Positions 52 to 19,147 of a stretch of DNA of 64,000 nt are shown one piece after another; within the stretch, counting starts at the first letter, position 1; every line of letters starts with the position of its first letter. This DNA is from Erythrobacter sp. (GTDB lineage: Bacteria > Pseudomonadota > Alphaproteobacteria > Sphingomonadales > Sphingomonadaceae). Both the position numbers and the translations under genes were made by a program. Location of the stretch: contig PNJY01000002.1 in assembly GCA_013822125.1 (NCBI GenBank), forward strand, positions 17,787-81,786, given 5' to 3'. Under the pieces are notes generated by a model, which saw only the letters and a program-made list of their open reading frames with translations, had not been told where the DNA came from and did no database searches.

Positions 52-3000
52 TTATTCACCGCTGTTCACCGTGCAGATACCAATGGCAAGAGCATCTGCA
101 GCTAGAAGCGCGTAACCAACTACTGGAATGGCTCTACCAGCAAACTTCGCCGCACTCAGGGTAGATGAAAGCTTTAGGCCATTACCAATTCCGGGAAATC
201 CAGTGAGTGTTGGGAGCTTAACTGCCATCTTGGCATCGCCGTAAATTGCGCTTGCAGCTCGCCCAGCCCAAGAAGTGCCCGGCGTTGCACCAGCAAACTT
301 ACCTCTGGTCTCGATCACGTTAGCGCCAGCAGCAGCTAAAGCGCCTCCTGATCCGCCGAGTGCCAAATTCAAGCCATAATGGTCGAGCGCGCATTGTCCT
401 GCTCTCTCGAGAACATTTGGCTTATCACTTTGCGGCCCTTTGCCGCCACCGCCGGGAGTTGTTCGAGTAGCCCGCTGGCTTGCCAGTCGCAGGGATTCGG
501 ATATCGCAGCCCATTCATTGATCACCGTTTGTCCGTTCGAACTTGGCGTGTAGCATGACCATCCACTTGGGCAGACTGAAAAGTTTGACGGAACAGGGAC
601 GATTGTTACGCCAGGACGATCCGCCGAGACGACAATGCTGCCATCCACCACAGTTGTTACAGCATTGCATGGTGCCCCTCCACAGCCGTTATAGCTGGCA
701 AGTGTAGGATCTGATTGGTTCAACCCACTCGGATCCACAAAGTTCACCGGATCGGAGCCGACATAGTTGTACCAGTTGAGGCCGTCGGCATAGCCGATCG
801 GATCGGTCTGCATGAAACGGCCAAGCGTGGGCGAATACATGCGTGCCTTGTAATTATACATGCCGATGTCCGCAATCCAGGTCTGCCCGGTATACTGGAA
901 AGTGCCCAGATTGCCCGCCTGCGGTATGCCGTACTCATCATAACGGTTGACCCCGATCGAAGCACCTGAGGCATCGCTGAGCGCGATCACCGAGCCGCGC
1001 TCGTCCGCCTGCAACCAGCGGCGATCGGCAGTGCCCGAGCCTTCGTACCAGACGACTGGCTCGTCCACCCCGGGGCCGGGCACATAGCGCCGCAGAATGG
1101 CGCCACCGCTCGATTTCTCGGCAAGCCGCATGCCCCCCGAATAGACGAAGCGGGTGGTTTGCGTGCCCGCCAGTTGCTGCAGGCGGCCTGAGGGATCGTA
1201 GGTGAGCGTGGCGCCTGGCGCGTTCGTCAACTGATTGAGCTTGTCATAACTGTAGGTGTCGCCACCCGAAGTCGCGAGATTGCCGCGCGCATCATAGGTG
1301 ATGCTGGTGCCGCCAGAGTTGGTATATTGGTTGAGGCCGTTGGCAGTGTAATTGCGGTCAAAATTGTAATGGCCGATCCAGGCATAGCTATCGTTGCTGC
1401 GTACCTGGCTGATGATTTGGCCTGCGGGATTATATGCGATCGGGGTGCCGGTGCTGCCAACTTTGCCGATGACGAGATCGGCAGAGGTCCCCGCCTGATC
1501 GATCTTGAGGCCCGACATGCGCCCGATTGCATCCCATTCATAAGTCCGGATGGTTCCGTTACCAAACGCGATCGATGCGCGCTGCCCAATGTCGTTATAC
1601 GAATAGCTTGCCAGCACGCCGATACCGCTTGTCGCGCCATTTTCCCTGATCTTGGTAACGCGGCCGAGTAAGTCGTAATCATAATTGGCGTAAAATGCGT
1701 CGGGCCAGGTCAACCGAGTCAGTTGGCCCGCGGCATCGTATTGATAGCTGGCGGTGCCATAGGGCTGACTTTCGCTGGTCAGGCGGCCCAGCGCGTCCCA
1801 ACCATTGGTGAGGGTCACCCCGTCTGACGGGCGCTGGATCTGGGTAAGCCTTCCGGCAAGGTCATAGGTCAGATTAACCGCCGGCTCCCCATTTGGTGTG
1901 CGCGACACCGGCCGGTTGAGGTTATCATAGGCGAGTGCGATGGTCGCGCCATCGCGCAGCCTGACCTGAGTAACATTCGAGGCCGCATCGTAAGTGAATT
2001 GCTCGTAGTCGGTGGTCGAACTGCTGTTGCTGCCCTTGGTTGCCACCGGGTAGCGCACCTTGAGATTGCGATCGTGTCCGTCATACTCATAGGTCGTGCG
2101 ATTGAGTTCAGCGTCAATTACATGGGCGAGTTGGCTATTGGCCGTGTATCCGAGTTGCTCAAGCGATTCGACGCTAGTCCCGAACGAGGAGCGGACCGAT
2201 GTCATGCGGTCGCTGTTGTCGTAGCCGTACTTGGTAATCCGGTCATCGCCGAAAGATCCAGCAGCTCCCAGTGTGCACGCGCTCGAGGGGGGACTGCCGA
2301 ACAGTGCCGGGTTCATGCGCAGCGCAGTGCATTCAAGCCGGTTCCGGCCATCATAGGAATACTGCTGGAGCGCATAAGTAGTGCCGCCCGACTGGACATC
2401 CTGGCGGATCAGATTTCCTTTGCTGTCATAAGCGAAGTTCGTGGTCGACGTGACCACAAGGTTTGTCATGTCAGCCGGGCTGGTGCCGGTCACGGTTCCG
2501 ACTTCAACTTTTGTAACTTGCGTCCCATCCCCGAAGGTGCGCCTTACCGCCGGTCGCTTCAACGGTCCCGCGCCATCGGGATCGGGATAGATAATCGCAG
2601 AGGTGTATGGTGTGTTTGGCGGACGGAATGTGGTGCGCCTGTCGAAATAGTAAGTCGTGTCATCGGTACCCGCAAGCGGCCCATCGACCTTCCACAGTTT
2701 GCCAGTCGGCCGGTAAGTGTACTGAAACTGGCTTGAAGCCGACACATCGCCTGCGGAAATCGTCATGCTTGTCATCAGCAGGTTGGGATTGTTGTATGCG
2801 TAGGTGATGACTGTTTCATTGGCAGAGCCGGCACAGGTTGCCGCTGTCGCGCAGGATTTGACCTGAGTGATCTTGTAGGTGGGCGTACTGACATTGACCA
2901 AGACGCCTGATGTATTCCTCACTTGCGCGTAAAGCGCAGCATAGGTGTAATCGATTTGCGCGCGCGGCGCGCCAGTCGATGCGGCCGGCAATTGGACGCG

Positions 3001-4368
3001 CGTCACACCGCCATGCGTGGCATCATAGATAAAATCGCTGCGGTTGCCCCGTTCATCAATGATGTAGTTGGGCTTGTTACATGTGAGTTCGTTCGTGCAT
3101 GTCGCAGCGTAGCTGGCCGTCGAGACGATATCCGCTAGGCCCGACCCAGCCTTCGCCACGCGGCGAATTTCGGTCACATTACCGCGGCTGTCATAGGTCC
3201 AGTTGGCGTAGTTGCCTTCAGGATAGGTCTCGCGTGTTTTCCGTCCGGCAGAGTCATAAAGAAAGGTAGTCACGCCGCCTTGCGGGTCAGTGTATGACGT
3301 AAGCTTGGAAGTGATTGTATCAACGACAAATATCTCGGTTGCACCGGTTCCGCTGGTCACAGTGGTCGTCTGACTCGAGCCCGATGTCGAGGAAGCGTAC
3401 GTGAAGTTTTCGCCTTGCTCGGTGACCGTCTGTACATTGCTCGAGCCATCGTATGACACGGTCAAATCGACAATTGTCGTTTCGGGGCGATCGAGCGAAG
3501 TGGCCAATCCTCCCGTGCTTGTAATTGTGGTCTGGTCACCAAAATCATCTGTGACCGTCCCACCCGATTTGTTAAGCGAGACCTCGTCCTGCGTCAGTGT
3601 GCCGCAGGTATCTGCAAGTGGGTTGCAATAATCCTCCGACAAATTGATCAGGCTCACCTTGGTGAGAACGCCAGACTGAACATCCGGGTCGCTGTACTCG
3701 GCCTTCATCATGGCCCCGGTGCTGGAGACCACTGACTGCACGCGCCAGTAGATGCGATAGAAGCCCGACCCCTTGCCCGATACGAAAACGGCTTTGGACT
3801 TGTAATTGAATTGATGGTTGCGTCCGTCTGGAAACACGATGCTGCTGATGTATGATTTGATGAGGAGAACGGAATTCTGCTCGCCAGTACCGGCTGCTGC
3901 GAAAAAAATTACCTTTGTCCCGTCCGGCAGTGTCAGTTGGTAGTTTTCGCTTCCCGCTGCGCCAAGCGAAACGAGTTTGTACTCAGCGCCGTTCTCCGAT
4001 GTAAACTGCCCAGATCCAATGCTTATGAACTTCAGACTATTCCCGTTGATGACGACAATACGGTCAGCACCGCTGATCACGATATATGCGCTCAATTGGT
4101 TGCGCAGTGTATTGGAGAGCTGGCCGTCGTTGAACTCGAAATCGAGCGCGGAAATCGTGGCTGAATTCACGCCAATCTGACGCGTACGCACATCAACGCC
4201 CCGTGCGTCCAGGATGGGCCGCGTTGGGGTCAGCACACCGCCGGAAACTTGCGCATTTGCTTCTGCGGCGAATGCCAGAAGACCGATGAGACTCCCTGAA
4301 AGCATCGCCCCCACATAGATTCGGCGGACGGCTCTTGAGCTCGCGAAATCGATGACATTATCGGTCAT
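52..4368 (-). CDS. RHS/YD-repeat protein with N-terminal signal-like segment and variable C-terminal tip
   Basis: 1438 aa ORF; many YD repeats (e.g. YDSAGRKTRETYPEGNYANWTYDSRGNVTEI); RHS core end RFMQTDPIGYADGLNWYNYVGSDPVNFVDPSGL followed by a ~220 aa non-repeat tail. Confidence 0.93.
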   Translation of the reverse strand: MTDNVIDFASSRAVRRIYVGAMLSGSLIGLLAFAAEANAQVSGGVLTPTRPILDARGVDVRTRQIGVNSATISALDFEFNDGQLSNTLRNQLSAYIVISGADRIVVINGNSLKFISIGSGQFTSENGAEYKLVSLGAAGSENYQLTLPDGTKVIFFAAAGTGEQNSVLLIKSYISSIVFPDGRNHQFNYKSKAVFVSGKGSGFYRIYWRVQSVVSSTGAMMKAEYSDPDVQSGVLTKVSLINLSEDYCNPLADTCGTLTQDEVSLNKSGGTVTDDFGDQTTITSTGGLATSLDRPETTIVDLTVSYDGSSNVQTVTEQGENFTYASSTSGSSQTTTVTSGTGATEIFVVDTITSKLTSYTDPQGGVTTFLYDSAGRKTRETYPEGNYANWTYDSRGNVTEIRRVAKAGSGLADIVSTASYAATCTNELTCNKPNYIIDERGNRSDFIYDATHGGVTRVQLPAASTGAPRAQIDYTYAALYAQVRNTSGVLVNVSTPTYKITQVKSCATAATCAGSANETVITYAYNNPNLLMTSMTISAGDVSASSQFQYTYRPTGKLWKVDGPLAGTDDTTYYFDRRTTFRPPNTPYTSAIIYPDPDGAGPLKRPAVRRTFGDGTQVTKVEVGTVTGTSPADMTNLVVTSTTNFAYDSKGNLIRQDVQSGGTTYALQQYSYDGRNRLECTALRMNPALFGSPPSSACTLGAAGSFGDDRITKYGYDNSDRMTSVRSSFGTSVESLEQLGYTANSQLAHVIDAELNRTTYEYDGHDRNLKVRYPVATKGSNSSSTTDYEQFTYDAASNVTQVRLRDGATIALAYDNLNRPVSRTPNGEPAVNLTYDLAGRLTQIQRPSDGVTLTNGWDALGRLTSESQPYGTASYQYDAAGQLTRLTWPDAFYANYDYDLLGRVTKIRENGATSGIGVLASYSYNDIGQRASIAFGNGTIRTYEWDAIGRMSGLKIDQAGTSADLVIGKVGSTGTPIAYNPAGQIISQVRSNDSYAWIGHYNFDRNYTANGLNQYTNSGGTSITYDARGNLATSGGDTYSYDKLNQLTNAPGATLTYDPSGRLQQLAGTQTTRFVYSGGMRLAEKSSGGAILRRYVPGPGVDEPVVWYEGSGTADRRWLQADERGSVIALSDASGASIGVNRYDEYGIPQAGNLGTFQYTGQTWIADIGMYNYKARMYSPTLGRFMQTDPIGYADGLNWYNYVGSDPVNFVDPSGLNQSDPTLASYNGCGGAPCNAVTTVVDGSIVVSADRPGVTIVPVPSNFSVCPSGWSCYTPSSNGQTVINEWAAISESLRLASQRATRTTPGGGGKGPQSDKPNVLERAGQCALDHYGLNLALGGSGGALAAAGANVIETRGKFAGATPGTSWAGRAASAIYGDAKMAVKLPTLTGFPGIGNGLKLSSTLSAAKFAGRAIPVVGYALLAADALAIGICTVNSGE

Positions 4369-5005: not shown

Positions 5006-5311
5006 TCAGGCCTCGCTTTCAAACGCGCGCTTGCCCTTGCGCTTCCACAGCACCAGCGCATTTTCCCGATCTTCGCCACGCAGCTTGGCCGCAATCGTGA
5101 GGAACGCGCCATAGAGCGTGGCGCGATCATCGTCGGCGAGTTCGACCAGCCCGGCTTTCATCACCAGACCGCCGAGTTCGATCAGTTGCCGCGTGCGCTC
5201 GCGTCGCTTCACTTGCCATTCTCGCATGTCGGTGCGTGCCTTTTGTGCCTCAAGCCGATGCCGCGCCGCCGTCAAGCTGGAAAGTGCCGTTCGGCTGGCC
5301 TTGAGTTCCAT
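5006..5311 (-). CDS. traD: conjugal transfer protein TraD (Ti-type)
   Basis: MREWQVKRRERTRQLIELGGLVMKAGLVELADDDRATLYGAFLTIAAKLRGE matches the TraD family as I know it; start uncertain (5311 or 5227). Confidence 0.75.
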   Translation of the reverse strand: MELKASRTALSSLTAARHRLEAQKARTDMREWQVKRRERTRQLIELGGLVMKAGLVELADDDRATLYGAFLTIAAKLRGEDRENALVLWKRKGKRAFESEA

Positions 5312-5555
5312 CGCCACGCTTGCGTGCCGTGCTCCGAAAGAACGCGGTCCCGCGCTTCGCCCATGCCTCCCTCTTTCCGGCATCAGCGGTTTCAGCAATG
5401 ACCAGCAATGCGCCCGCCAGTGTTTCCGCGTCGGTCGCATCGGCTCCAGTGGCGATCACCAGTTCGCCGAGCTGCTGCACGCGGCGTTCTTTAAGCTGCC
5501 TTGCCCTGTCGGCGAGCGCCTTCAGTTCGGTGTCGATATTTCGTGGTTTGCGCAT
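5250..5555 (-). CDS. traC: conjugal transfer protein TraC-like
   Basis: MRKPRNIDTELKALADRARQLKERRVQQLGELVIATGADATDAETLAGALLVIAETAD; small gene divergent from traA. Confidence 0.72.
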   Translation of the reverse strand: MRKPRNIDTELKALADRARQLKERRVQQLGELVIATGADATDAETLAGALLVIAETADAGKREAWAKRGTAFFRSTARKRGDGTQGQPNGTFQLDGGAASA

Positions 5556-5727: not shown

Positions 5728-8601
5728 ATGGCGATCTATCACCTCTCGGTCAAAGTCATCAGCCGCTCGAGCGGGCGCAGCGCCGTCGCAGCTTCGGCCT
5801 ATCGCGCTGCCGAACGGCTGCACGACGATCGCCTCGACCGCGATCACGACTTCACAAACAAATCGGGCGTCGTCCATTCCGAAGTCATGCTGCCCGAACA
5901 TGCGCCCGACGAATGGCGTGACCGCGAACGCTTGTGGAACGATGTCGAAGCCATCGAGAAGCGCAAGGACGCGCAGCTGGCGCGCGAGGTCGAGTTCGCG
6001 ATTCCGCGCGAGCTCAATCAGCAACAGGGGATCGAGCTGGCGCGCGAGTTCGTCAGCCAGGAGTTCGTCGATATCGGCATGGTCGCCGACCTCAATGTCC
6101 ATTGGGACGCTGGTGCCGACGGCATGGCCAAGCCGCATGCGCATGTCATGCTGACGATGCGCGAGATCGGGAGCGAAGTGACCGCCAGCGACCACGGCGA
6201 ACCCGGCTTTGGCGCCAAGGTCCGCGACTGGAACCAGACCGCGCTGGTCGAGCGCTGGCGGACAAGCTGGGCCGATCATGTCAACACCCGCCTCGCCGAG
6301 CTCGACATCGATGCGCGTATCGATCACCGCAGCCTCGAAGCGCAGGGGATTGCGCTCGAGCCGCAGCACAAGATCGGCCCCGCCGCATCGCGCATGGAGG
6401 GTCAGGGCCATGCCAGCGAGCGGCTCGAACAGCATCACGCGATCGCGCGCAGCAATGGCGAGAAGATCCTCGCCGATCCGGCCATCGCGCTTGGCGCAAT
6501 CACGCACGGCCAGGCGACGTTTACCGGCCGCGACCTTGCCCGGTTCGTGCACCGCCACAGCGAAGGCAAGGACCAGTTCGATAGGGTCATGGCGGCGGTG
6601 CGCGCATCGCCCGAACTGGTGAGACTGGGCCGGGACGGGCGCGGCGAGCCGCGCTTCACCTCGCGCGAGATGCTCAGGACCGAAGCGCGGCTCGAACAGG
6701 CCAGCGTGAGCCTCGATGCGCGGCGCAGCCACGTGGTCGCCGCCCGCATGCAGGAACGCGCGCTCGCGCGCGCGCAGGCCCGCGGGCTCGATCTGTCGGG
6801 CGAGCAGCGTAGCGCCTTCGACCATGTGACCGGCTCGCGCGCGCTGGCCAGCGTCGTCGGCTATGCCGGGTCGGGCAAGAGCGCGATGCTCGGCGTGGCG
6901 CGCGAGGCCTGGGAGGCGGCGGGTTACGAGGTGCGCGGGCTGGCGCTCTCAGGGATTGCCGCCGAAGGCCTCGAGCACGGCTCGGGCATTCATTCGCGCA
7001 CCATTGCCAGCCTTGAACACCAGTGGAGCCAGGGCCGCGAACATCTCACTTCGCGCGATGTGCTGGTGATCGACGAGGCGGGCATGGTCGGCACGCGCCA
7101 GATCGAGCGCGTGCTCTCGCATGCCGCCGAAGCGGGCGCCAAGGTCGTGCTGGTTGGCGACCCGCAGCAATTGCAGGCGATCGAGGCGGGCGCGGCGTTC
7201 CGCGCGATTGCCGAGCGTCATGGCGCGATCGAGATTACCGCGGTCCGCCGCCAGCACGAAGACTGGCAGCGCGACGCGACGCGCCAGCTCGCCACCGGGC
7301 GCACCGCCGAGGCGCTTGATGCTTATGATGAGGCCGGACACGTCCATCCCGCCGCCACCAGAGAAGCAGCGCGCGGCGAACTGATCGAGCGCTGGGACCG
7401 CGAGCGCCAGGTAGCCCCAAGCGATACCCGCATTATCCTCACCCACACCAACGACGAGGTGCGCGCGCTCAACGAGGCGGCGCGTGGGCGCATGCGGATG
7501 GGGAGCGAGCCTGCGCCGGGCGCATCGCCCGAACGGCAACAGCTACTGGGCGAAGACGTGCGCGTCATGACCGAGCGCGGCGAGCGGAACTTTGCCAGCG
7601 GCGACCGGATCATGTTCCTCAAGAACGAGCGCAGCCTCGGGGTCAAGAACGGCACGCTCGGCATTGTCGAACATGTGACCCCGCAACACATTGCGGTGCA
7701 CACCGACGACGGCCGCAGCCTCGCCTTCGACACCAGGGACTATGCCCATATCGACCACGGTTACGCCGCCACGGTGCACAAGGCGCAGGGGATGACGGTG
7801 GAGCGGGTCCATGTGCTGGCAACCCCGGGGATGGACAGCCACTCGGCCTATGTTGCGCTCTCGCGCCATAGGACCAGCGTCGATCTGCACTATGGCAACG
7901 ACGACTTCGCCGATCAGACGCGCCTCACTCACGCGCTTAGCCGTGAACGCGGCAAGGACATGGCCAGCGACCATGCCCCCGCACACGGGCGCGCCATGCC
8001 GGTGCCAGAACACACCGATCACGGCCACGACGCGCGAGACAGCGAGGCGAGCCTGCGCCGCGCGCGCAGCGCCGCGCTGATTCGTCATGCCCGCGCGGTC
8101 GATGCGATCTTTACCGGGCAGAACATGGGGATCGAAGCAAGCGCCAGCCAGACCGCCGAACTCCAGCAGGCGCGGCGCAGCTTCGAGGAACTGCGCCCGT
8201 TCGGATCGCGCGATGCCGAGGCCGCCTATCGCAAGGACCCCGCGCTGGCGCGCGAGGCGGGCCAGGGCCAGATCACCCGCGCGGTCGCCGCGCTCTATGT
8301 CGAGACCGACCTGCACTCCGAGCGCTCCATGCGTGCCGACAGGTTCGTCGCCCGCTGGAACGGTCTCGCCGACCTCGCCGAGCGCCAGTATCGAAGCGGC
8401 AGCATGTCCGATCATCGCGGCACCCGCAGCGCCATGGCCGCGATGGCCAAAAGCCTCGAGCGCGATCCGCAGCTCGAATCGCTCCTCGCAGGCCGCAAGG
8501 CCCAGCTCGGCATCACGCTTGAAACCGGACGCTCGCTCGCTCGTGATCTCGCGCTCAGCCACGGGCTTGATCTCGGACGCGGACGAGGACTGGGGATTTG
8601 A
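5728..8601 (+). CDS. traA: Ti-type conjugative relaxase/helicase TraA (MobA/MobL + TraI-like helicase)
   Basis: 957 aa; MAIYHLSVKVISRSSGRSAVAASAYRAAERL; metal-binding HAHVMLTMRE; Walker A GYAGSGKSAMLG; VIDEAGMVGT; C-terminal GYAATVHKAQGMTVERVHVL. Confidence 0.95.
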   Translation: MAIYHLSVKVISRSSGRSAVAASAYRAAERLHDDRLDRDHDFTNKSGVVHSEVMLPEHAPDEWRDRERLWNDVEAIEKRKDAQLAREVEFAIPRELNQQQGIELAREFVSQEFVDIGMVADLNVHWDAGADGMAKPHAHVMLTMREIGSEVTASDHGEPGFGAKVRDWNQTALVERWRTSWADHVNTRLAELDIDARIDHRSLEAQGIALEPQHKIGPAASRMEGQGHASERLEQHHAIARSNGEKILADPAIALGAITHGQATFTGRDLARFVHRHSEGKDQFDRVMAAVRASPELVRLGRDGRGEPRFTSREMLRTEARLEQASVSLDARRSHVVAARMQERALARAQARGLDLSGEQRSAFDHVTGSRALASVVGYAGSGKSAMLGVAREAWEAAGYEVRGLALSGIAAEGLEHGSGIHSRTIASLEHQWSQGREHLTSRDVLVIDEAGMVGTRQIERVLSHAAEAGAKVVLVGDPQQLQAIEAGAAFRAIAERHGAIEITAVRRQHEDWQRDATRQLATGRTAEALDAYDEAGHVHPAATREAARGELIERWDRERQVAPSDTRIILTHTNDEVRALNEAARGRMRMGSEPAPGASPERQQLLGEDVRVMTERGERNFASGDRIMFLKNERSLGVKNGTLGIVEHVTPQHIAVHTDDGRSLAFDTRDYAHIDHGYAATVHKAQGMTVERVHVLATPGMDSHSAYVALSRHRTSVDLHYGNDDFADQTRLTHALSRERGKDMASDHAPAHGRAMPVPEHTDHGHDARDSEASLRRARSAALIRHARAVDAIFTGQNMGIEASASQTAELQQARRSFEELRPFGSRDAEAAYRKDPALAREAGQGQITRAVAALYVETDLHSERSMRADRFVARWNGLADLAERQYRSGSMSDHRGTRSAMAAMAKSLERDPQLESLLAGRKAQLGITLETGRSLARDLALSHGLDLGRGRGLGI

Positions 8602-8758: not shown

Positions 8759-10021
8759 TCAGTCAAAAGCATCGAGCTGTTCGCCAAATCCACGTCGGAT
8801 TGCAACGCAATCCGAGCAAAGGCGTAGCGAGGGAATACCCGGCATCGCCTCCGCCGCGTTGACCAGCCGGTAGTCGCTCGCCGGATCGCCGCATGACGAA
8901 CAGACCTCTGCTGACTCGGAGTGCCGGATCGCCAAGCGGGCGATAGCGCCCAGCCGTGGTTCGACACGATCAACGATCGAAAACCATAGGGGCGTATGCG
9001 GCACAACCCGTTCCATATAGCGAGCGACGTCATCCGGATAATGACTTAGCAGCCACGACCGCGCAGTCTCAATTCTCAGTTCGTGCTCGTGCACCAAGGT
9101 TTCATAGTGCGCGATGAGTATGCGGAGCGTATCGCGCGCGCTCTTCCTCTGCATAGCTTGATATTGCGTCAGGTTGACTGCAAACCGGACACCGCCCGAA
9201 TAGGCCTCGCGGATCGTCTCTATGCAGTATGCCTGTAAGTCAGCCACCATCGCCGGGTCCGAGACGCTTTTCATCAGCGGCAGGTCATAGCGGTAGGGGT
9301 GCGCCAGTCGTTCATGCCTCCAGACGTCGAGATAACCGGAACCCCGCAGGGCATGCGCGATGGTTGCATCCCATTCGGGGTGATCAAGGATCAGCCGGAC
9401 AAGGTCTGTAAAGTTCTCGACTACCGGATCGAGCCGTCTCCCCGCTGCCAGAACAGCGTTATGCGATTCGCGCATCAGGTCGAGCGGGCTGGGATATGCC
9501 GCGATAGCTTCGATCTCTTCGGCTGATACAGGCTGGGTGACATCGGCAAGCTCCACCAAAAGCGGACTGTTGCGCAGATCTTCAGGAGTGCAATAATCCT
9601 GATCGGGAACCATTTGGATGCCGACAGCCGCATAGGCCTGCGCGACCAGGCGCGAGCAAAATTGTCTGCTTCCGCGCGGCTTTCGACCGCCAAGCACAGA
9701 TCGAGCGGCTTCTGCCTTTGAGTATCTCGTGCCGATTTCAGAACGCGCAAAGTCGATGATACGCGCCATCTCGACTGGTGCCAACGGATCGCGCAATCTG
9801 AACGCAAAGACCGCCTCGTCTTCGCGAAAGAACTCGCGCTGAAGGTTCCACGCCTGGACCCCTTCTTCGGTTGAGTCGATGATCGACCCGTGTTGCACGC
9901 AGATCATTGCATGCGAAACGACGCCCTTGCTCGCCACGCGCACCACATTACCCTCCTTCGTCCGGTTAGCGGTCAGGATGATGTCGCCCGGTCGCAATCT
10001 ATCGATGTCAATCCGTCGCAT
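8759..10021 (-). CDS. YiiX/NlpC-P60-like (permuted papain fold) cysteine hydrolase with C-terminal CxxC zinc-ribbon-like motif
   Basis: GDIILTANRTKEGNVVRVASKGVVSHAMICVQHGSIIDSTEEGVQ (His motif) and RQFCSRLVAQAYAAVGI (Cys motif); CSSCG...CSDC near C-terminus. Confidence 0.7.
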   Translation of the reverse strand: MRRIDIDRLRPGDIILTANRTKEGNVVRVASKGVVSHAMICVQHGSIIDSTEEGVQAWNLQREFFREDEAVFAFRLRDPLAPVEMARIIDFARSEIGTRYSKAEAARSVLGGRKPRGSRQFCSRLVAQAYAAVGIQMVPDQDYCTPEDLRNSPLLVELADVTQPVSAEEIEAIAAYPSPLDLMRESHNAVLAAGRRLDPVVENFTDLVRLILDHPEWDATIAHALRGSGYLDVWRHERLAHPYRYDLPLMKSVSDPAMVADLQAYCIETIREAYSGGVRFAVNLTQYQAMQRKSARDTLRILIAHYETLVHEHELRIETARSWLLSHYPDDVARYMERVVPHTPLWFSIVDRVEPRLGAIARLAIRHSESAEVCSSCGDPASDYRLVNAAEAMPGIPSLRLCSDCVAIRRGFGEQLDAFD

Positions 10022-11378
10022 CCGAACCCCGTTGCACGATAAACTTGCGGGAATATCCGCCTGGAATTCCGCCCATGAAGGGCTCCCTTGTCAAAGTTAC
10101 CTGCCCGAACGGAATGTCGGCTGCGAAGTCATCAAGCGACACGACGAGGCTTTTGAGCCGTTCAACCGCGTCGAGGCTGACCGCTTGCTCAAGGAGGTGA
10201 AGCGCATGAACGATGAACATGTCCTCAGCTTCGCCCGATTGCTCCGGATCGTAGATGTTGATCTTGATTTTGAGCACGGACGCCGCGTGCTCGCTGCCTT
10301 CGATGTAATAGGCGACGTTATTTCGCCAGATGGCACCGTTTCCGAACTCGCGCATAGGGCTGGATGCAAACCATTCGTCGTCGTAGCTGCGATGGTAGTG
10401 ACCGGTTTCAACGCCAAGGTCGGCCATGAACTGCATGGCGAGGTAAGGCGACCATCCATCTTTAGGGTGCACCGTTGGCGGTGACTTCTCGCGCAGCGTC
10501 AAGGCGAGGAGCGCGTCTAGTGAGTGTTTGAGCTCGGCCTTGTTCGCCGGTCGCGAATTTTGCAGCGCTTTGCGCCACCGGTCCAGCAGCACGATGTTGC
10601 CGCGAATGCGTGTGATCGCCAGCCAGCGCGCATATGGAACCAGTCGCTTGTCGATCCCGAATATGCCGATTGTCGCGAACATGCTGTTGTTGGCGACATA
10701 GGTCCGCCACCCATAGAGAAACGGCAGGAAGCCAAGCGACAGCAGCACGGGAATGACAAACTCCGAAGCGGTCGCCCACGTTGCAGCCTTCTGCCATTGC
10801 TCAATGGTCCTGAGCAGGCTGAACCCCAGATAGGAGAAGCCGATTGCGCTGATCGTGCAGCCAAGCAGGCGTGACACCTGTGCGTGTTCTGGTCGGTGTT
10901 TTGCGACTTCTCCCATCATGGCGATCGTCGCGACGACCGGCAGCGCGATCAGTTCGACGATCAACGGAAAGGTGTGAAGCCCAGTGATGAAGACCAGCAC
11001 AGCCGTGACCGAGACAACATCGCGAGTGACCTTCGCCAGGCTTGCTGGCCGGTTTTTGGCTGTCGCTACTTCGAACATCGTAACGAAGCCGAAGGTCGCC
11101 AGCCAGAGGATGGTGGTCTTGAGGTTTGCCGCCGACCACAGGCCCGAACGATGAAGCACCCAAATTTCTGCCGCCGCGTAGAGCACTGCTACCGCCAAGG
11201 GAATCAGCAGCACCGGTTTGACGAAGGCTCTCAATACTCCGATGGCGCTGGACCGTGTCGATTGGGCGACAAAGACGTAAATGGCGAAAATGACCAACCA
11301 AATTGCTGCAGCGGCTTCGCGCGAATTCACCGAGCCCAAGAAAGCCTGAATCGCGCCGATCAGGCTATCGCCGCTCAC
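10008..11378 (-). CDS. multi-pass membrane protein of unknown function
   Basis: 456 aa; several hydrophobic segments in the first ~230 aa, soluble C-terminal half; 14-nt overlap with the downstream hydrolase gene. Confidence 0.75.
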   Translation of the reverse strand: MSGDSLIGAIQAFLGSVNSREAAAAIWLVIFAIYVFVAQSTRSSAIGVLRAFVKPVLLIPLAVAVLYAAAEIWVLHRSGLWSAANLKTTILWLATFGFVTMFEVATAKNRPASLAKVTRDVVSVTAVLVFITGLHTFPLIVELIALPVVATIAMMGEVAKHRPEHAQVSRLLGCTISAIGFSYLGFSLLRTIEQWQKAATWATASEFVIPVLLSLGFLPFLYGWRTYVANNSMFATIGIFGIDKRLVPYARWLAITRIRGNIVLLDRWRKALQNSRPANKAELKHSLDALLALTLREKSPPTVHPKDGWSPYLAMQFMADLGVETGHYHRSYDDEWFASSPMREFGNGAIWRNNVAYYIEGSEHAASVLKIKINIYDPEQSGEAEDMFIVHALHLLEQAVSLDAVERLKSLVVSLDDFAADIPFGQVTLTREPFMGGIPGGYSRKFIVQRGSDATD

Positions 11379-11380
11379 TG

Positions 11381-13762
11381 TCAGACCGCAAACCGGGCAG
11401 CAAAGGCATGAACATCGCTAGCATCCCACGCAGGTTCATCTGCGTCAGCGATCGCCCGCTCCCGCGCGCGCTTCGCCATCCATTGGCGATAGCTGGGTTC
11501 GGGATGGTCCTGCTCCAGCTCCTTGATTGCTGCATATGTGTCGGAACCGGGCTGCGAAGATAGCAGGTTGAACAGGTTGTTGCGCGCATCCTGAGCATCG
11601 TCGCGGGCGGTCGGCGAATAGACCCCGCCGTTGGCGCGGTTGATGTCGTCGCTCGCCCTGATGAAGCGATGCATCAGGACATACAAGCTCTTGAGATGCG
11701 CCGGCGTCTTGAAGGCGCCGGTCCGATTGCCGGTCCCGTGCCGGTCGCCTAGCAGCGAAACCACGAAGAACTGCGCAAAGCTCGATCCGTCTTCCCGCCC
11801 AAGCCTTTCCAACTCTGCCTCAAGCGCTGGAATAGCTTCATCAGGCGCGTTGTCGACCCACAGCGCATACCAGCGCGGGAGCTGCTCCGCACCAACCCCG
11901 CCCGCAAGCTTTGCTTTGGCTAGTTCGCCTAATTCGGCTGGTGCCACCCCTGAACTCGACAGGATGTTGAGGCAGTAGCGCAGATTGTCCGCGTTGTGCA
12001 TGTCGTTCGCAACTAGCCATTCGAGGATTAACGGCGCGACCTCGGCATGAAGCCATGGTGTGTGATAAAGGATATCGTGCAGGATATGGTGGGTTGGCTG
12101 ATCGGACTTGCTGTGATCCAGATCCCAGATCAGCTCTTTCGCCACTGCGTCCATTCCCGCCTGGGGGTGCGCGCGATAGAGCGGCTCGAACCAGCGCGGA
12201 AACCCGTTCAACTCCCAAGTGACATAGCGCAACACATGCCTCGCCTCTGCATCGCTGAGCGATGCGAAGAAGTTTTCATTTTCTGCAAATTCGATAGCAA
12301 TGCCCGCCATCGCGAAGATCAGCGCGTATGGCGTGGAACCAGTCGCAGCCCCCTCTGAGCGCAGGCCTGGCATGTACGGACGCCAAAAGCCCACGGCAGT
12401 GTCACGATAGGCGCGCGCAACATCTTCGCCCAACTCAGGGATCAACTGCTGCCAAGCCGAACCCCAATCGCGATCGTGCGCGATGCCGTCCTCCCGGATG
12501 CTGTGAAGGAGGTGCAACTGATCGTAACTGAATTCCCCTGGCCCCAGCCCTTCGGGCGATCGAACGCGGTCCGGATCAGCTTTGAGCATGCGCACCCAAT
12601 CCGCCCGGTCGCGCTCTTCTTTGTCTTCTCGGGCCTTCCTTTCCCGTTTCCATTTACGATTTTCCGCCTCCATCTTCCGCACTGCTGGCGAAGGGCGCGG
12701 ATCGATCCGCTGTGCGAGCGCCGCTACCAGTTCTGCCTGCCCAAATGCTGCGGCATGCATTTTCTCAAGCCAATCGGCCGGGCGATCCGCAGCGACGAAA
12801 AGAACAAGACAACGCGACAACGCCACCAGCCGGTCGTCGAGCGATTCTTTGTCGCGCACCCAGCCTAGACAGCGATCGAAGTCGTCGGCCTCGAAGCGCC
12901 AGAACGGTCCCATGAACGAGATTTGCCAATCGTCGACCATCCGCTCTCCTTTGGCGGCTAGGTGCGCGCGGCGCTCGGCAACGCTGGTCCAGTAGAGGCG
13001 ATCATTCAACTCCTGCCAGCGCGGGACGTTTACGCCAAGGGCATTCTTGAAGTCGGTCGCGCCATCGCTACGCCAGAAGCGAACGGCCGGCACTTTGCGG
13101 AGGATCGCAAGCGCCTCGGGATGCAAGGCCGCCGCCGCACGACCGCTCACCAGGCGATCGACCGCGTGCAGCGCCGGACCCATCAACCAGCTGAACGGCT
13201 CGGAGACATGGCATTCGCCACGCTCGATATGGGGTTCGCGGTCGAGAAATGCGTTGAGGCCTTCGACCAGGCAGGCAACCGGTTGTTCAGGCGCGGCATC
13301 GGCCATGATCGGCAGCCGCTCTATCAGGCGGTGGATCGCCTCTGATAGCCCCGTCGCTTCAAAGCGCTCATAGGGCGTGAGCCGGTCGATCGAGGCAAGA
13401 AGCAGCTCGACGCTTCGCATCGTCGGTGCGGCCCATTCCACCAGCTCACCCAACAAGCGCCGGTCGAGCGGTGGATCTAGCGCGACAACGGCTGACCACA
13501 GTGCGTCCTTCTGCGCCTCTTCGCCCAAAGTCATGACCGCGCGGATCGAAGCTATGCGGGCATAGCGGCCACGGTTCGGATCGAGCGCGATCTGCTCCAA
13601 CGCGGGCAGGCACGTGCGCATCTCACCCTGCCAGGCAAGGCGCCCGATGAAGAAGACGACATCGTCATCGCCGCCGAAGCGTTCGAGCAATGCAAGTGCG
13701 TCTTCGGCGAGGTCGGGTGCGGCAATGCGCTCGATCGCGGTGTTGTCCATAATCCCTCTCAC
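11381..13762 (-). CDS. large helical-repeat (HEAT-like) protein, probable sensor/partner subunit of the NACHT NTPase
   Basis: 793 aa alpha-helical ORF (ALLERFGGDDDVVFFIGRLAWQGEMRTCLPALEQIALDPNRGRYARIASIRAVMTLGEE); GTG start overlaps the TGA of the upstream NACHT gene; alternative ATG at 13750. Confidence 0.7.
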   Translation of the reverse strand: MRGIMDNTAIERIAAPDLAEDALALLERFGGDDDVVFFIGRLAWQGEMRTCLPALEQIALDPNRGRYARIASIRAVMTLGEEAQKDALWSAVVALDPPLDRRLLGELVEWAAPTMRSVELLLASIDRLTPYERFEATGLSEAIHRLIERLPIMADAAPEQPVACLVEGLNAFLDREPHIERGECHVSEPFSWLMGPALHAVDRLVSGRAAAALHPEALAILRKVPAVRFWRSDGATDFKNALGVNVPRWQELNDRLYWTSVAERRAHLAAKGERMVDDWQISFMGPFWRFEADDFDRCLGWVRDKESLDDRLVALSRCLVLFVAADRPADWLEKMHAAAFGQAELVAALAQRIDPRPSPAVRKMEAENRKWKRERKAREDKEERDRADWVRMLKADPDRVRSPEGLGPGEFSYDQLHLLHSIREDGIAHDRDWGSAWQQLIPELGEDVARAYRDTAVGFWRPYMPGLRSEGAATGSTPYALIFAMAGIAIEFAENENFFASLSDAEARHVLRYVTWELNGFPRWFEPLYRAHPQAGMDAVAKELIWDLDHSKSDQPTHHILHDILYHTPWLHAEVAPLILEWLVANDMHNADNLRYCLNILSSSGVAPAELGELAKAKLAGGVGAEQLPRWYALWVDNAPDEAIPALEAELERLGREDGSSFAQFFVVSLLGDRHGTGNRTGAFKTPAHLKSLYVLMHRFIRASDDINRANGGVYSPTARDDAQDARNNLFNLLSSQPGSDTYAAIKELEQDHPEPSYRQWMAKRARERAIADADEPAWDASDVHAFAARFAV

Positions 13763-15105
13763 TTCGCATCCGCTGCGATCTGGGCGACGATGCCGGCAAG
13801 CATTTCCCGCCGCACTGCCAGCGGCAGTTGCGATGGGTCGCCGCCTTCGCTGGCGATGTCGGGTTCAAGCGCGAGCGCCCGGTCGCGCACACCCTCATCG
13901 AGTAGCAAAAGCCAACACAAGGTCGGCCGCAACCGCGGAACGATGACCTCTTCGCCATACTGATTGCGGAAGAATAGGCCTTCGACCTCGGGCCTCGCGC
14001 CGGGACGAACAAGCAGCCGCTGAGCCCATTCAGCGGTAAGCAATTCGCGGATTTCGCGGTGACGAAAGCGAACGCTTGCATAGACGATATCGTCGAATAT
14101 GCCGGTCCGTAGCAATGCGACAAGTTCAGGTTCGGACCAGTCGGGCAGCACTGCGGCAGGATCGACCCGATCCACCTTGTTAGCATCGTCGGGTAGCGAT
14201 ACTATGCTCCGCCCAGTTAGAGTGACGGCGGCGGCCAGTGCCTGCGCGCCGCAGCGCGCGCGATCAGCCGAAATTTTTTGTGGGGCTACCATCCCCGACA
14301 GTGGTGCGAGCTGGAGTTCGATCAGACGCTGCAGAACCTTCAGGCGGCTGCCCAAAGCGCCATCGGCCTGCCAAACAAGGATGAGTGCTTTCAAGTCGAA
14401 TGGCCGCTCGGCAAGGGTTGTCAGACCGCCGCGCTCGACGGCGGCCATGAATGCGTTCGCATCGACACCGTAATGCGCGGCGAACAGCCTGATCTGATCC
14501 GGCTTGAGGCCGCCGAGGCGATAGATTTTGAGGACAGGATCGCTCTCGGTCTCGTCTGAATTCTTTTTCTTTTTTTCATCCGCTTCGGCTGGCGCACCAT
14601 GCGGCAGATATTGCTCGACCAGAGTACGATCGGTCAGAGCCTGCCAGGCGTCTTCGCGGCTCGTGATGATGATCCGTGCGCGCTCGCGGGCAGTCTGGAT
14701 GCGCGCGCCGAACAGCCGGATGGCATCTTCAAGCGCGCGCGGAGTCCCGAGCTGCGCTTCGTCAACCGAATCGAGGAAGAAATAGGCTTCGCCATCGCCT
14801 GCCAGCCACTCGGCGAAATCGGCGGCGGTGCCGACCTCGAACCCGTTCTCGAATGCTGCATCGATGGCCTCGATCCGGATGAAGAAGGCATTGGCGCCGT
14901 CTGCGCGAAGTTTAGCGGCGCGATCTTTTGCCTCGAATGTTTTGCCAGCACCAGCGTCGGCCAGAACCAGAACACGGTATTGCTCTTCGAGCGCGCGCCA
15001 CCCCTGCACTGTGCCGCCCGGTTCTGGATGGAGAAACTCCCACTCGCCGAAATGCGGCTTAGCCGGAACGAAGCGGCGGATCAGGGGGACGATAATATCC
15101 TTCAT
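13759..15105 (-). CDS. NACHT/STAND-type P-loop NTPase
   Basis: Walker A VLVLADAGAGKTFEAKDRA; Walker B EAYFFLDSVDEAQL; RARIIITSREDAW sensor segment; ATG at 15105 overlaps the Fic stop (ATGA). Confidence 0.82.
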   Translation of the reverse strand: MKDIIVPLIRRFVPAKPHFGEWEFLHPEPGGTVQGWRALEEQYRVLVLADAGAGKTFEAKDRAAKLRADGANAFFIRIEAIDAAFENGFEVGTAADFAEWLAGDGEAYFFLDSVDEAQLGTPRALEDAIRLFGARIQTARERARIIITSREDAWQALTDRTLVEQYLPHGAPAEADEKKKKNSDETESDPVLKIYRLGGLKPDQIRLFAAHYGVDANAFMAAVERGGLTTLAERPFDLKALILVWQADGALGSRLKVLQRLIELQLAPLSGMVAPQKISADRARCGAQALAAAVTLTGRSIVSLPDDANKVDRVDPAAVLPDWSEPELVALLRTGIFDDIVYASVRFRHREIRELLTAEWAQRLLVRPGARPEVEGLFFRNQYGEEVIVPRLRPTLCWLLLLDEGVRDRALALEPDIASEGGDPSQLPLAVRREMLAGIVAQIAADAK

Positions 15106-16295
15106 GGCCGCGTCCCTGCATTGGCCGGATAGAGGTTGGGAAACCAGCGCTCCGCGACATCGGCCGGGAAGGCGAGCCGCAGCGCGGCCTTGTGTGTCGG
15201 GGCGATCAGCATTCCGCGCTCGACCAATGCCGCCGTGACGTTGCGCGCGCCGCGTTCTCCGTAACCGGTAAGCATCGGGATTTTCGAGCGCTCGACCTCG
15301 CCTGCCAGCACCGCTTCGCGCAACACCGCATAGCTGCCACGCTGCAGCTGCTTCGACCGTACTTCCTCTTCGACATGAATCTCGATACGGCGCAGCAGCA
15401 TGTCTGGTTCGAGCAGGCCGCTCATGAATCGGATCTGGTCGATCGAGCGCTCTAGGAAGAAGCGGCAAAAAGCGATCAAGCCACGCTGGGTCAGGTTGCC
15501 GCGACCGTCGCGGTCGCCCTCGCGCGCCCCATCGGCCTGTGCGAGCAGCTTCTTGTAAAGCTCTTCTTCGCGCGCAAGGCCGCGCGCCACCGACCACAAG
15601 CTTGTGCCGATTCCCAGCCGCTTGAACAGCGCATGTGACATCAGCCGAGCTACCCGGCCGTTTCCGTCGAGAAAGGGGTGAATCCAGAGGAAGCGATGAT
15701 GCACTGCGCCGACTGCCTGGATTTGCCGGAAGCTGCTGAGTGGAGGCGAGGTGTAGGCCCGGTCGAACCGCGCCATGAATTGGGGCAGGTCGGAATGATC
15801 GGGCGGCAGATGTCTGCCGACCTCGACATCGCGGGTGCGCCACTCTCCGGGAACCACGGGCAGCTTCTCACCGGTTTGCGGATGCACGACCCAGAGCATC
15901 TCGGGCGGCAGGCGCGAGCAGAATTCCTCGTGCAGCCATGCGGCATAGGCGGCCGATGCCGGCCATACATCGGGATCGCGACCGATATCGATCAGCTGCT
16001 GCACATGGATATGCGCAACCGCTTCCTGCTGCAATTCGCGGCGCTTGGGTTCAGCCGAAAAGTCGTTGGCGAGCGCGCGATCAATATCGCGCGGATGCGT
16101 GTCATGGCCTTCGATCAGGTTCGAATAATAGCAGTTCATCGACCGGACGAGATCGCCCATGGAATCGCGCAGGATCGGGTGCACCCGGCCCGCAAGCTGG
16201 TTTGCCTCGGCAATTAGCACCACGACCTCGTCTTCGAGATCCTTGACCGCCTCCTCGGGCACCATAGGCTCCATGGTCATTGTGCTCATGCACAC
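15102..16295 (-). CDS. Fic family protein, class II (N-terminal inhibitory motif)
   Basis: Canonical HPFLDGNGRVARLM; N-terminal YYSNLIEGHDTHPRDI fits the (S/T)xxxE(G/N) inhibition motif; winged-helix-like C-terminus; start GTG 16295 or ATG 16289. Confidence 0.93.
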   Translation of the reverse strand: MCMSTMTMEPMVPEEAVKDLEDEVVVLIAEANQLAGRVHPILRDSMGDLVRSMNCYYSNLIEGHDTHPRDIDRALANDFSAEPKRRELQQEAVAHIHVQQLIDIGRDPDVWPASAAYAAWLHEEFCSRLPPEMLWVVHPQTGEKLPVVPGEWRTRDVEVGRHLPPDHSDLPQFMARFDRAYTSPPLSSFRQIQAVGAVHHRFLWIHPFLDGNGRVARLMSHALFKRLGIGTSLWSVARGLAREEELYKKLLAQADGAREGDRDGRGNLTQRGLIAFCRFFLERSIDQIRFMSGLLEPDMLLRRIEIHVEEEVRSKQLQRGSYAVLREAVLAGEVERSKIPMLTGYGERGARNVTAALVERGMLIAPTHKAALRLAFPADVAERWFPNLYPANAGTRP

Positions 16296-16297
16296 TT

Positions 16298-16390
16298 TAT
16301 GCCGGATTTCATGCCGGTTGTAAATGTTGAAAGTAAGGAATTTATATCGCTATATGAAAGCAATATGTGCCGCTTAATATGCCGGATATT
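16298..16390. promoter_or_regulatory. putative operator of the Fic-NACHT operon
   Basis: Three copies of ATGCCGG (16299-16305, 16311-16317, 16379-16385); the third lies inside the inverted repeat TAATAT-GCCGG-ATATTA; AT-rich segment directly upstream of the operon start. Confidence 0.5.
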
Positions 16391-16516: not shown

Positions 16517-17446
16517 CTACCCAGCCTTGCTTGCCAGCTCTTCAAGCTCGGCTATCCGCTCCGAGCAGATCTTATGCACGATCTGGCCGAGTTCCTCGAC
16601 GCGCTCGCCGAGCCAGCTCAGCTCCTCCTCGCTGATGCGGTAGTGCTTTGAGTAGCGCGCCTTGACATAGGCTTCCTTCAATTTCTCGAACATCGCCCGC
16701 TGTTTGCGGTTGTCCATCGGCCAGACATAGGTGAGGCGCCGGTCGAGCCGCTCGGCCTGGGTGCGCAGGAAGCCGAGATTGTGGACGTGAGGAGTGTAGA
16801 AGGTCACGACCAAAAGGGCGGAGTGGTAGAGGAACTCAGCGGTCTGATGTAGATCGAATGCTGCTGGCTTGAGAAAACCCTTCTTCAGGCCAAGTCTTGA
16901 GAGTTCAAAGCGCTGCATCGCGGTCGGAAACCACTCCTCGAAATACTCCTTGGCCATGGCCAGCGCCTGTTCGGGAGTCTTGGGCTTGGGCTGGTGGAAG
17001 GGCGTGTCGTCGCTCTGGTAGAGCGCGATGCCGTCCTTGGCCACGTCCATGAAGAAGTAGCGGCCATGGGCAAGTCCGTCGTTCACCTCCTGCAAGGTGT
17101 GGACGATGAAATTGACCGGGGTTCTGATCGCTCCGGCAATGCTGTATTCGCGCATCAGGCGCTCATCGAGCTTCGACCAGTACTTGACCCGGTCGGTGAG
17201 CCGCTTGTCGTTGACCACGATCAGCAGGTCATAGTCGGACTTGTAGCCCTTGGCGGTATGCGGCTCATCGACCCAGCCGCCGCGCGCATACGAACCGTAC
17301 AGCACGATCTTGAGGATGCGCCCGGCCTTCTTCCATTCGTGCTTGGCCAGCGCGAAGGCATCGCCGAACTCTTCAAAGATGATCTCGACCACCCTCTCGA
17401 GCTCGCGCTGCTTGTTGGCAGGAAGATGGTCAAGCTCGGTGCGCAT
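16517..17446 (-). CDS. fused MNT nucleotidyltransferase-HEPN domain protein
   Basis: IVLYGSYARGGWVDEPHTAKGYKSDYDLLIVV (GS...DxD polymerase-beta motif) plus C-terminal HEPN-like FDLHQTAEFLYHSALLVVTFYTPHVHNL...KARYSKHYRI. Confidence 0.85.
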   Translation of the reverse strand: MRTELDHLPANKQRELERVVEIIFEEFGDAFALAKHEWKKAGRILKIVLYGSYARGGWVDEPHTAKGYKSDYDLLIVVNDKRLTDRVKYWSKLDERLMREYSIAGAIRTPVNFIVHTLQEVNDGLAHGRYFFMDVAKDGIALYQSDDTPFHQPKPKTPEQALAMAKEYFEEWFPTAMQRFELSRLGLKKGFLKPAAFDLHQTAEFLYHSALLVVTFYTPHVHNLGFLRTQAERLDRRLTYVWPMDNRKQRAMFEKLKEAYVKARYSKHYRISEEELSWLGERVEELGQIVHKICSERIAELEELASKAG

Positions 17447-17687: not shown

Positions 17688-17996
17688 ATGACCATCCCCG
17701 ACCGCATCATCCGGCTGCGAACCGTTCTGGAGAGCACCGGTCTGTCGCGCTCGACCGTCTATCGCAAGATCGCCGAAGGCACATTCCCTCCGCAGATCAA
17801 GCTCGGAGTCCATGGAGCAGGCTGGCGCGAGTCCGAGATCAATCGCTGGATCGCCGATCCGGTCAGCTATCGCCTGGATGGGGCCGAACATCGCCCGAAG
17901 ACCAGGGCTCAAGCCGCTTTTTTGCCCGCTTTGGCTTTGCTCTGGACATGCCTGCTAACAAGAGCGACCTTGTCACTGGGCTTCTTCGCGCAATAG
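17688..17996 (+). CDS. AlpA-family transcriptional regulator
   Basis: MTIPDRIIRLRTVLESTGLSRSTVYRKIAEGTFPPQIKLGVHGAGWRESEINRWIADPV; 3' end overlaps the integrase tail-to-tail. Confidence 0.88.
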   Translation: MTIPDRIIRLRTVLESTGLSRSTVYRKIAEGTFPPQIKLGVHGAGWRESEINRWIADPVSYRLDGAEHRPKTRAQAAFLPALALLWTCLLTRATLSLGFFAQ

Positions 17997-19147
17997 ACCG
18001 CCCATGCTTCCATCAGTTTGCGCCGCTTGTCGAACAGATCGCCGCGCCGATAAGCGGCCTCGGCCTTGTTGCCGATGGTATGCGCCAGCGCCATCTCGCA
18101 GACTTCGTGGGGAAAGCTGGTGGTCTCCGATGCCCAGTCACGGAAGGTCGAACGGAAGCCATGGACGGTGATGTCGGCTTTCATCCGGCGCAGCAGCATC
18201 GCCATCGCCATCGAGGACAATGGCCTCCTCGGCCTGGGGCCGGGAAAGACGAAGCCTTCGGTGCCGAGTGTCTGCATGGCCTCGACGATTTCCATTGCGC
18301 GCGATGACAGGGGAATGCGGTGCTCACGCCCCGCCTTCATCCGCGCAGCAGGGATCGTCCAGAATTTCTTCTCAAGATCGATCTCATTCCACTGAGCGCC
18401 CAGCACCTCGCCCGAACGCGCGGCGGTCAGGATGGTGAACTCCAGCGCCAGCGCCGCCACTGCGCTGCGTCCACGCAGGTCCGCCATGAAGCCGGGCAGC
18501 GCGTCATAGAGCATTGCCGCATGATGGCCGCGCGACAGCCGCTGACGCTTGGGCAGGAGCTGGTCGAGATGCCCGCGCCAGCGCGCCGGGTTCTCGCCAG
18601 AACGGTGGCCTTTGGCCTTGGCGGCATCGAGGACATTCTCGATCCGGCCGCGCAGCCGCTCGGCGGTCTCGGGCGTGCGCTTCCACAGGGCTTGCAGCAC
18701 GTCGAGCACATCCTGTGTCGCAACCTCGTTCACCGGCTTGCCGCGTATCGGTTTGGCATAGGTGGTCAGGGTCATCTTCCACTGCGCCGCATGTTTGGCA
18801 TTGCGCCACGACGGTGACATCGCCTCCACATAAGCATCGGCGCATTCGCCGAAGGTCGGGATATGGTCATCCCTGGCGCGCTCGGCCTTGGGATTGCCGC
18901 CTGCCGCCAGCATCGCCCGAAGCTTTCCCGCTTCGGTCCGCGCATGGGCAAGCGACAGGTCGCGCCCGCCGCCAAGGCCCAGCTCGGTGCGCTTGCCACC
19001 GCGCGCATACATGAAAATCCAGCGCCGCCGTCCATGCTGGTCGATGAACAGATAGAGCCCGCCGCCATCGGAATGGCGTCCGGGCGTCTTCAGCTTCGCC
19101 GCCTGCGCTGCGCTCAGCTTGTTAAGGGCTCGTCCCGCCATAATCAA
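17909..19147 (-). CDS. P4-type tyrosine integrase
   Basis: N-terminal KTPGRHSDGGGLYLFIDQHGRRRWIFMYARGGKRTELGLGG; catalytic region TAARSGEVLGAQWNEID...ITVHGFRSTFRDWASE. Confidence 0.95.
   Translation of the reverse strand: MIMAGRALNKLSAAQAAKLKTPGRHSDGGGLYLFIDQHGRRRWIFMYARGGKRTELGLGGGRDLSLAHARTEAGKLRAMLAAGGNPKAERARDDHIPTFGECADAYVEAMSPSWRNAKHAAQWKMTLTTYAKPIRGKPVNEVATQDVLDVLQALWKRTPETAERLRGRIENVLDAAKAKGHRSGENPARWRGHLDQLLPKRQRLSRGHHAAMLYDALPGFMADLRGRSAVAALALEFTILTAARSGEVLGAQWNEIDLEKKFWTIPAARMKAGREHRIPLSSRAMEIVEAMQTLGTEGFVFPGPRPRRPLSSMAMAMLLRRMKADITVHGFRSTFRDWASETTSFPHEVCEMALAHTIGNKAEAAYRRGDLFDKRRKLMEAWAVYCAKKPSDKVALVSRHVQSKAKAGKKAA

Follow-up and report, generated by a model that had tools for sequence, protein, structure and literature searches.

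We describe an operon in which a class II Fic gene directly precedes both halves of a split HyoA, a NACHT domain-containing antiphage protein, and we favor the reading that effector replacement has occurred, with Fic acting in trans where most HyoA relatives carry a nuclease in cis. The operon lies on the minus strand of the window, the whole 64,000-nt stretch of DNA analyzed, in which the five ORFs of the first-pass annotation and the junctions between them were confirmed:

16369..16387 (-): putative distal operator, CCGGCATATTAA-GCGGC, located ~70 bp farther upstream than the proximal operator
16296..16317 (-): putative proximal operator, a tandem CCGGCATGAAAT-CCGGCATAAA direct repeat with 12-bp period, immediately before the Fic start
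15102..16295 (-): class II Fic protein, 397 aa (Pfam PF02661, E 1.4e-15; FICD in PDB, E 2.8e-12)
13759..15105 (-): NACHT NTPase half of split HyoA, 448 aa, its ATG within a longer mechanical ORF (NF058534 positions 28-458, E 5.7e-140)
11381..13762 (-): HEAT-like solenoid half of split HyoA, 793 aa (NF058534 positions 464-1246 of 1430, E 5.7e-229)
10008..11378 (-): accessory polytopic membrane (TM) protein, 456 aa, with ~6-7 hydrophobic segments at residues 19-225 and a soluble C-terminal half (hydropathy)
8759..10021 (-): accessory C92/YaeF-YiiX permuted papain-like hydrolase, 420 aa (PF05708, 51.3 bits vs a gathering cut-off of 27)

Fic and NACHT genes overlap by 4 nt (ATGA), as do NACHT and helical genes (GTGA); a 2-nt gap follows before the TM gene, which overlaps the hydrolase gene by 14 nt. 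The NACHT start is most plausibly the ATG at 15105, within the ATGA shared with the Fic stop. Window positions 8780-16332 align with another genome as a single 7.6-kb stretch at 77% nucleotide identity, whose edges are the edges of the operon, and dN/dS ratios of 0.04-0.11 across all five genes indicate purifying selection; the block is therefore more than a chance assembly. The mobile setting noted earlier was also found, with an integrase gene upstream of the operon and relaxase and conjugal genes downstream. Directly upstream are genes for an MNT-HEPN fusion protein (16517-17446, minus strand) and a tyrosine integrase (17909-19147, minus strand); an MNT-HEPN gene also adjoins a solo Fic gene at another locus (L170). 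Downstream are genes for a TraA-like relaxase/helicase (5728-8601, plus strand), a TraD-family conjugal protein (5006-5440, minus strand) and an RHS-repeat protein (52-4368, minus strand).

The NACHT and helical proteins had been taken for a new pair. Instead, each represents half of a single protein from a known antiphage family, since they match consecutive stretches of the same 1430-residue NCBIfam model, NF058534. Scored singly, the halves reach 468 and 763 bits, each below the curated cut-off of 1200 bits, and a Rhizobium member of the window's Fic clade, in which the halves are fused into one protein of 1239 aa, passes that equivalog cut-off with 1244.7 bits. Pfam alone would miss the relationship, because its models match the NACHT half only weakly, through STAND families, and do not match the helical half. 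PADLOC models, Avs among them, did not match either protein at E ≤ 1, a PDB sequence search with the NACHT protein found no match, and literature matches to 'EruA' were unrelated to HyoA/EruA. No relatives of the helical protein were found in phage records; viral contigs held one distant relative.

The NTPase assignment stands, with Walker A (ADAGAGKT) and Walker B (FFLDSVDE(A)) motifs that are kept in all 13 Fic-clade members. So does that of a helical-repeat protein: the AF2 model (pLDDT 87) is an all-helical, HEAT-like solenoid, and its top structural neighbors, CAND1, SF3B1 and importins, are HEAT proteins, matched at low global TM-scores, as is usual for bent solenoids. This half is probably the sensor arm. 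In Sphingomonadales and Burkholderiales members the sensor is in two pieces with an identical split point, and the junction, where it was read out, is a 1–4 nt overlap. The split is a stable gene fission, and translational coupling of the halves is probable. Assembly error or a pseudogene was rejected as the cause, the split being common to nine rows of the clade (the window, L010-L014 and L132-L134); programmed frameshifting to fuse the halves is less likely, as the junction differs among members (ATGA, GTGA, 1-nt overlap).

Genome contigs, plasmid records and whole genomes were surveyed, yielding 93 usable NACHT-plus-helical sequences, which were placed on a tree by a quick LG+G4 search. An extra C-terminal domain is present in 75 of the 93 rows and absent from 18. 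This tail spans ~185 aa (profile positions ~1246-1430). Of 69 tails examined, 68 continue the reading frame of the sensor, and the residues E68/E92/D102/E117-x-K119 are conserved in 68–69; a Q is conserved as well. In Foldseek comparisons with the AF2 model of the tail (pLDDT 89), McrC, Hjc resolvases, the R2 endonuclease domain and SwaI rank among the best structural neighbors, each by a weak match (best E 4e-3); a PDB sequence search with the tail profile gave no relevant match. Taking the conserved motif and the structural neighbors jointly, we regard the tail as a PD-(D/E)XK-like nuclease. It is most likely ancestral, because the more distant relatives L090-L097 also carry it.

The tail is missing exactly where another candidate effector is present. 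Thirteen of the tailless rows, including the window, have Fic directly upstream and form one clade with a single origin (SH-aLRT 100) from Sphingomonadales, Burkholderiales and Rhizobiales; some of these rows are near copies (L010/L132 and L002/L016), so they represent about 11 distinct loci. The other five form a second clade (SH-aLRT 100) from Pseudomonas, Stutzerimonas, Sphingomonas and Sphingobium, and in all five the Septu genes ptuA and ptuB lie directly downstream (PtuA match, E 0), with no Fic gene. These loci share one layout, in locus coordinates:

L020, L022, L028, L036, L039: tailless HyoA-like sensor at 7.5-11.4 kb, PtuA/PtuB at 11.4-14.7 kb

None of the 75 tailed rows has a linked Fic of the operon type; one of them (L064) has an unrelated weak Fic match 2 kb away. 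Mapped on the 93-row tree, the tail/Fic/Septu state requires 2 changes vs 17.2 in shuffles. On the tree, Fic became linked to the sensor once and so did Septu; their exclusivity with the nuclease therefore reflects two events that were then maintained and not many independent swaps. The tree gives no order of branching among the Fic, Septu and nuclease clades. The second clade may represent a NACHT-Septu system, a pairing that we did not find in the searchable literature, which excludes subscription papers and preprints.

The Fic protein has the class II features claimed for it, an intact HPFLDGNGR motif (HPFx(D/E)GNGR) and an N-terminal SNLIEG helix ((S/T)xxxE(G/N)), and both catalytic and inhibitory motifs are intact in all HyoA-linked homologs. 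Its C-terminal region is probably a winged HTH. Fic evolves more slowly than its partners (dN/dS 0.04) and keeps 77–92% identity within the clade vs 49–81% for the helical part. Close orphan Fic genes might have spoken against an association with the sensor; this was resolved for plasmids of Rhizobium beringeri and R. leguminosarum, whose orphan Fic is 98% identical to linked Fic and is followed by NACHT-gene remnants (about 8185-8280 in L164, L165 and L166), 32 codons in L164 and a shorter piece in the other two. Across these loci the sensor deletion has two different end points and the Fic gene is intact. Fic can therefore be tolerated in the sensor's absence, as would be expected more readily if the sensor activates Fic than if it restrains it. 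Solo Fic relatives at 43–64% identity are common; this, with the persistence of the orphans, indicates that Fic can have a role independent of the sensor.

The repeat-rich region reported upstream of Fic was likewise found, as CCGGCA copies near 16296-16317 and 16369-16387. CCGGCA-type repeats precede every HyoA-linked Fic gene, with 46 copies in 13 loci against 1.5 expected from shuffles, in tandem arrays of 12-bp period, usually as two clusters about 70–90 bp apart. They were also upstream of 7 of 10 class II Fic genes examined that stand alone, so that such repeats precede linked and solo genes alike (L002-L016, L164-L172); the operator thus belongs to the Fic gene. The proximal repeats of the window lie just before the start codon, between TTTACA and CATAAA with 17-nt spacing. 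We read these hexamers as a putative -35/-10 promoter; the assignment is our own, as a consensus sigma-70 scan of the window promoter found nothing above threshold.

The last two genes are less constant. The TM protein is a polytopic membrane protein by hydropathy, as annotated, with no family match in Pfam, PADLOC or NCBIfam profile searches. The proposed YiiX-like hydrolase proved to be of C92/YiiX type, with candidate His37/Cys122 and a C-terminal CxxC..CxxC zinc ribbon; a PDB sequence search with it gave no match. A TM and a C92 gene are found after the sensor in only 3 of the 13 clade loci (the window, L010, which is the same as L131, and L132), whereas Fic with HyoA, the NACHT-plus-helical sensor that had been linked to Fic, is kept in 13/13. 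The five genes are therefore not one conserved system, and the core is Fic plus the (split) HyoA sensor; TM and C92 are an accessory pair, probably a later dispensable add-on in a Novosphingobium-like lineage. The TM gene of L132 is interrupted by an IS3-type element. A recent transfer is suggested by L131 and L132, which come from genomes with different genus codes and share 99.96% identity across 13 kb. Solo TM homologs occur beside a TIR protein, a PDC-S06-like ATPase (AAA) or large unassigned ORFs:

L138:7827-9170, solo TM homolog
L139:7524-8885, solo TM homolog
L145:8037-9320, solo TM homolog
L146:7989-9311, solo TM homolog

Solo TM homologs include ones on Salmonella and Arcobacter plasmids. 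C92 also occurs by itself, on Ri plasmids and in the neighborhood of restriction-modification genes and of a TIR gene; the hydrolase encoded by L147:8001-9269, on Rhizobium rhizogenes Ri plasmids beside a RES-domain gene, has both the C92 domain and the zinc ribbon and is 52% identical.

We propose that two translationally coupled genes of the operon encode the separate polypeptides of a HyoA-type NACHT/HEAT STAND sensor. When triggered by a signal that is derived from phage or induced by infection, the sensor would bind ATP and oligomerize through its NACHT module. The triggered sensor would then activate the co-encoded Fic by relieving the block of the SNLIEG inhibitory helix over the HPFLDGNGR active site, and active Fic would AMPylate, or otherwise NMP-modify, an essential host target, leading to growth arrest or abortive infection. 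Fic would thereby take the role of the cis C-terminal PD-(D/E)XK-like nuclease, as PtuAB seemingly does in the sister lineage. Expression would be kept low if Fic, as is probable, binds the CCGGCA repeats at the Fic promoter; such autorepression through the C-terminal wHTH would parallel CbFic2, a wHTH-bearing class II Fic that both binds DNA and is under its control (PMC10628234). The TM protein and C92 hydrolase may form a second, membrane-acting effector.

Other arrangements of the same parts are less likely. Fic might be a regulator, (de-)AMPylating the NACHT/HEAT protein or using its wHTH and the CCGGCA repeats to repress the operon, with the killing effector elsewhere (in the window, TM or C92). 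The operator's position at the promoter and its co-occurrence with Fic agree with this, as do the CbFic2 precedent, the presence of C92 and TM in the window, and the occurrence of C92 relatives near other defense genes. However, 10 of the 13 clade loci lack TM/C92 or any other recognized effector, so there Fic would regulate a sensor without output, and the nuclease tail is absent exactly where Fic is present; we consider a purely regulatory Fic unlikely. Slightly less likely again is a single five-gene system whose sensor would set off Fic and the membrane/C92 effector together. The tight junctions, the block alignment that ends at the operon edges and the purifying selection on all five genes would suit such a system, but the complete set is found in only three loci, two of them nearly identical, one TM gene is broken by the IS3-type insertion, and elsewhere TM and C92 are each found as solo genes.

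It is highly improbable that NACHT/HEAT restrains a toxic Fic as in a toxin-antitoxin pair, its loss at infection setting Fic free. Sofic does have a separate small antitoxin, AS1 (PMC12249575), and the genes here overlap; yet intact Fic, 98% identical to the linked form, survives two different sensor deletions, and Fic already has its own inhibitory helix. Effector replacement remains our preferred reading. We lean, a little less firmly, towards its broader form, that the HyoA chassis swapped its nuclease for a Fic AMPylase once and for PtuAB once, and that a STAND sensor drives AMPylation in trans.

If this is true, a bacterial NLR-like sensor has been re-armed by effector swap, between a domain in cis and a partner in trans, and class II Fic enzymes in defense gain a concrete candidate activator (cf. 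PMC12249575). It would also be a natural experiment in which three sister lineages join one sensor type to three outputs, nuclease, AMPylase and Septu, so that sensor specificity and effector output become separately testable. The earlier description of the operon as undescribed holds for the combination but not for the NACHT/helical family, which is HyoA: a Fic-plus-NACHT composition was not found in the searchable literature (subscription papers and preprints are outside this scope), and as far as could be searched the coupling of sensor to AMPylation is new.

Among known systems, HyoA (NF058534) is the closest, aligning end to end with the NACHT and HEAT-like regions of the window. The window form differs in being two polypeptides without the C-terminal ~185-aa PD-(D/E)XK-like domain, and in having a class II Fic gene coupled upstream. 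In a sister lineage of HyoA, Septu PtuAB is presumed to act as the effector in trans; PtuA and PtuB are absent from the window operon. NLR-like bNACHT proteins (e.g. bNACHT25/32) share the NACHT NTPase and a C-terminal helical region as presumed sensor, and some have PD-(D/E)XK effectors (PMC12169576). The window protein has their Walker A/B motifs and lacks an N-terminal effector domain, its NACHT starting near residue 35. Whereas bNACHT effectors are N-terminal and in cis, the nuclease of HyoA relatives is C-terminal and the presumed effector of the window is a separate protein. Sofic, a single-protein class II Fic defense (PMC12249575), shares the N-terminal inhibitory helix and a similar layout; the window Fic matches the PADLOC SoFic model at E 1.7e-20 and scores 17.3 bits with NCBIfam SoFic NF046030, far under the 550-bit cut-off. 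Unlike in Sofic, no AS1-like gene lies between Fic and NACHT in the window, and throughout the clade Fic always adjoins a NACHT/HEAT sensor.
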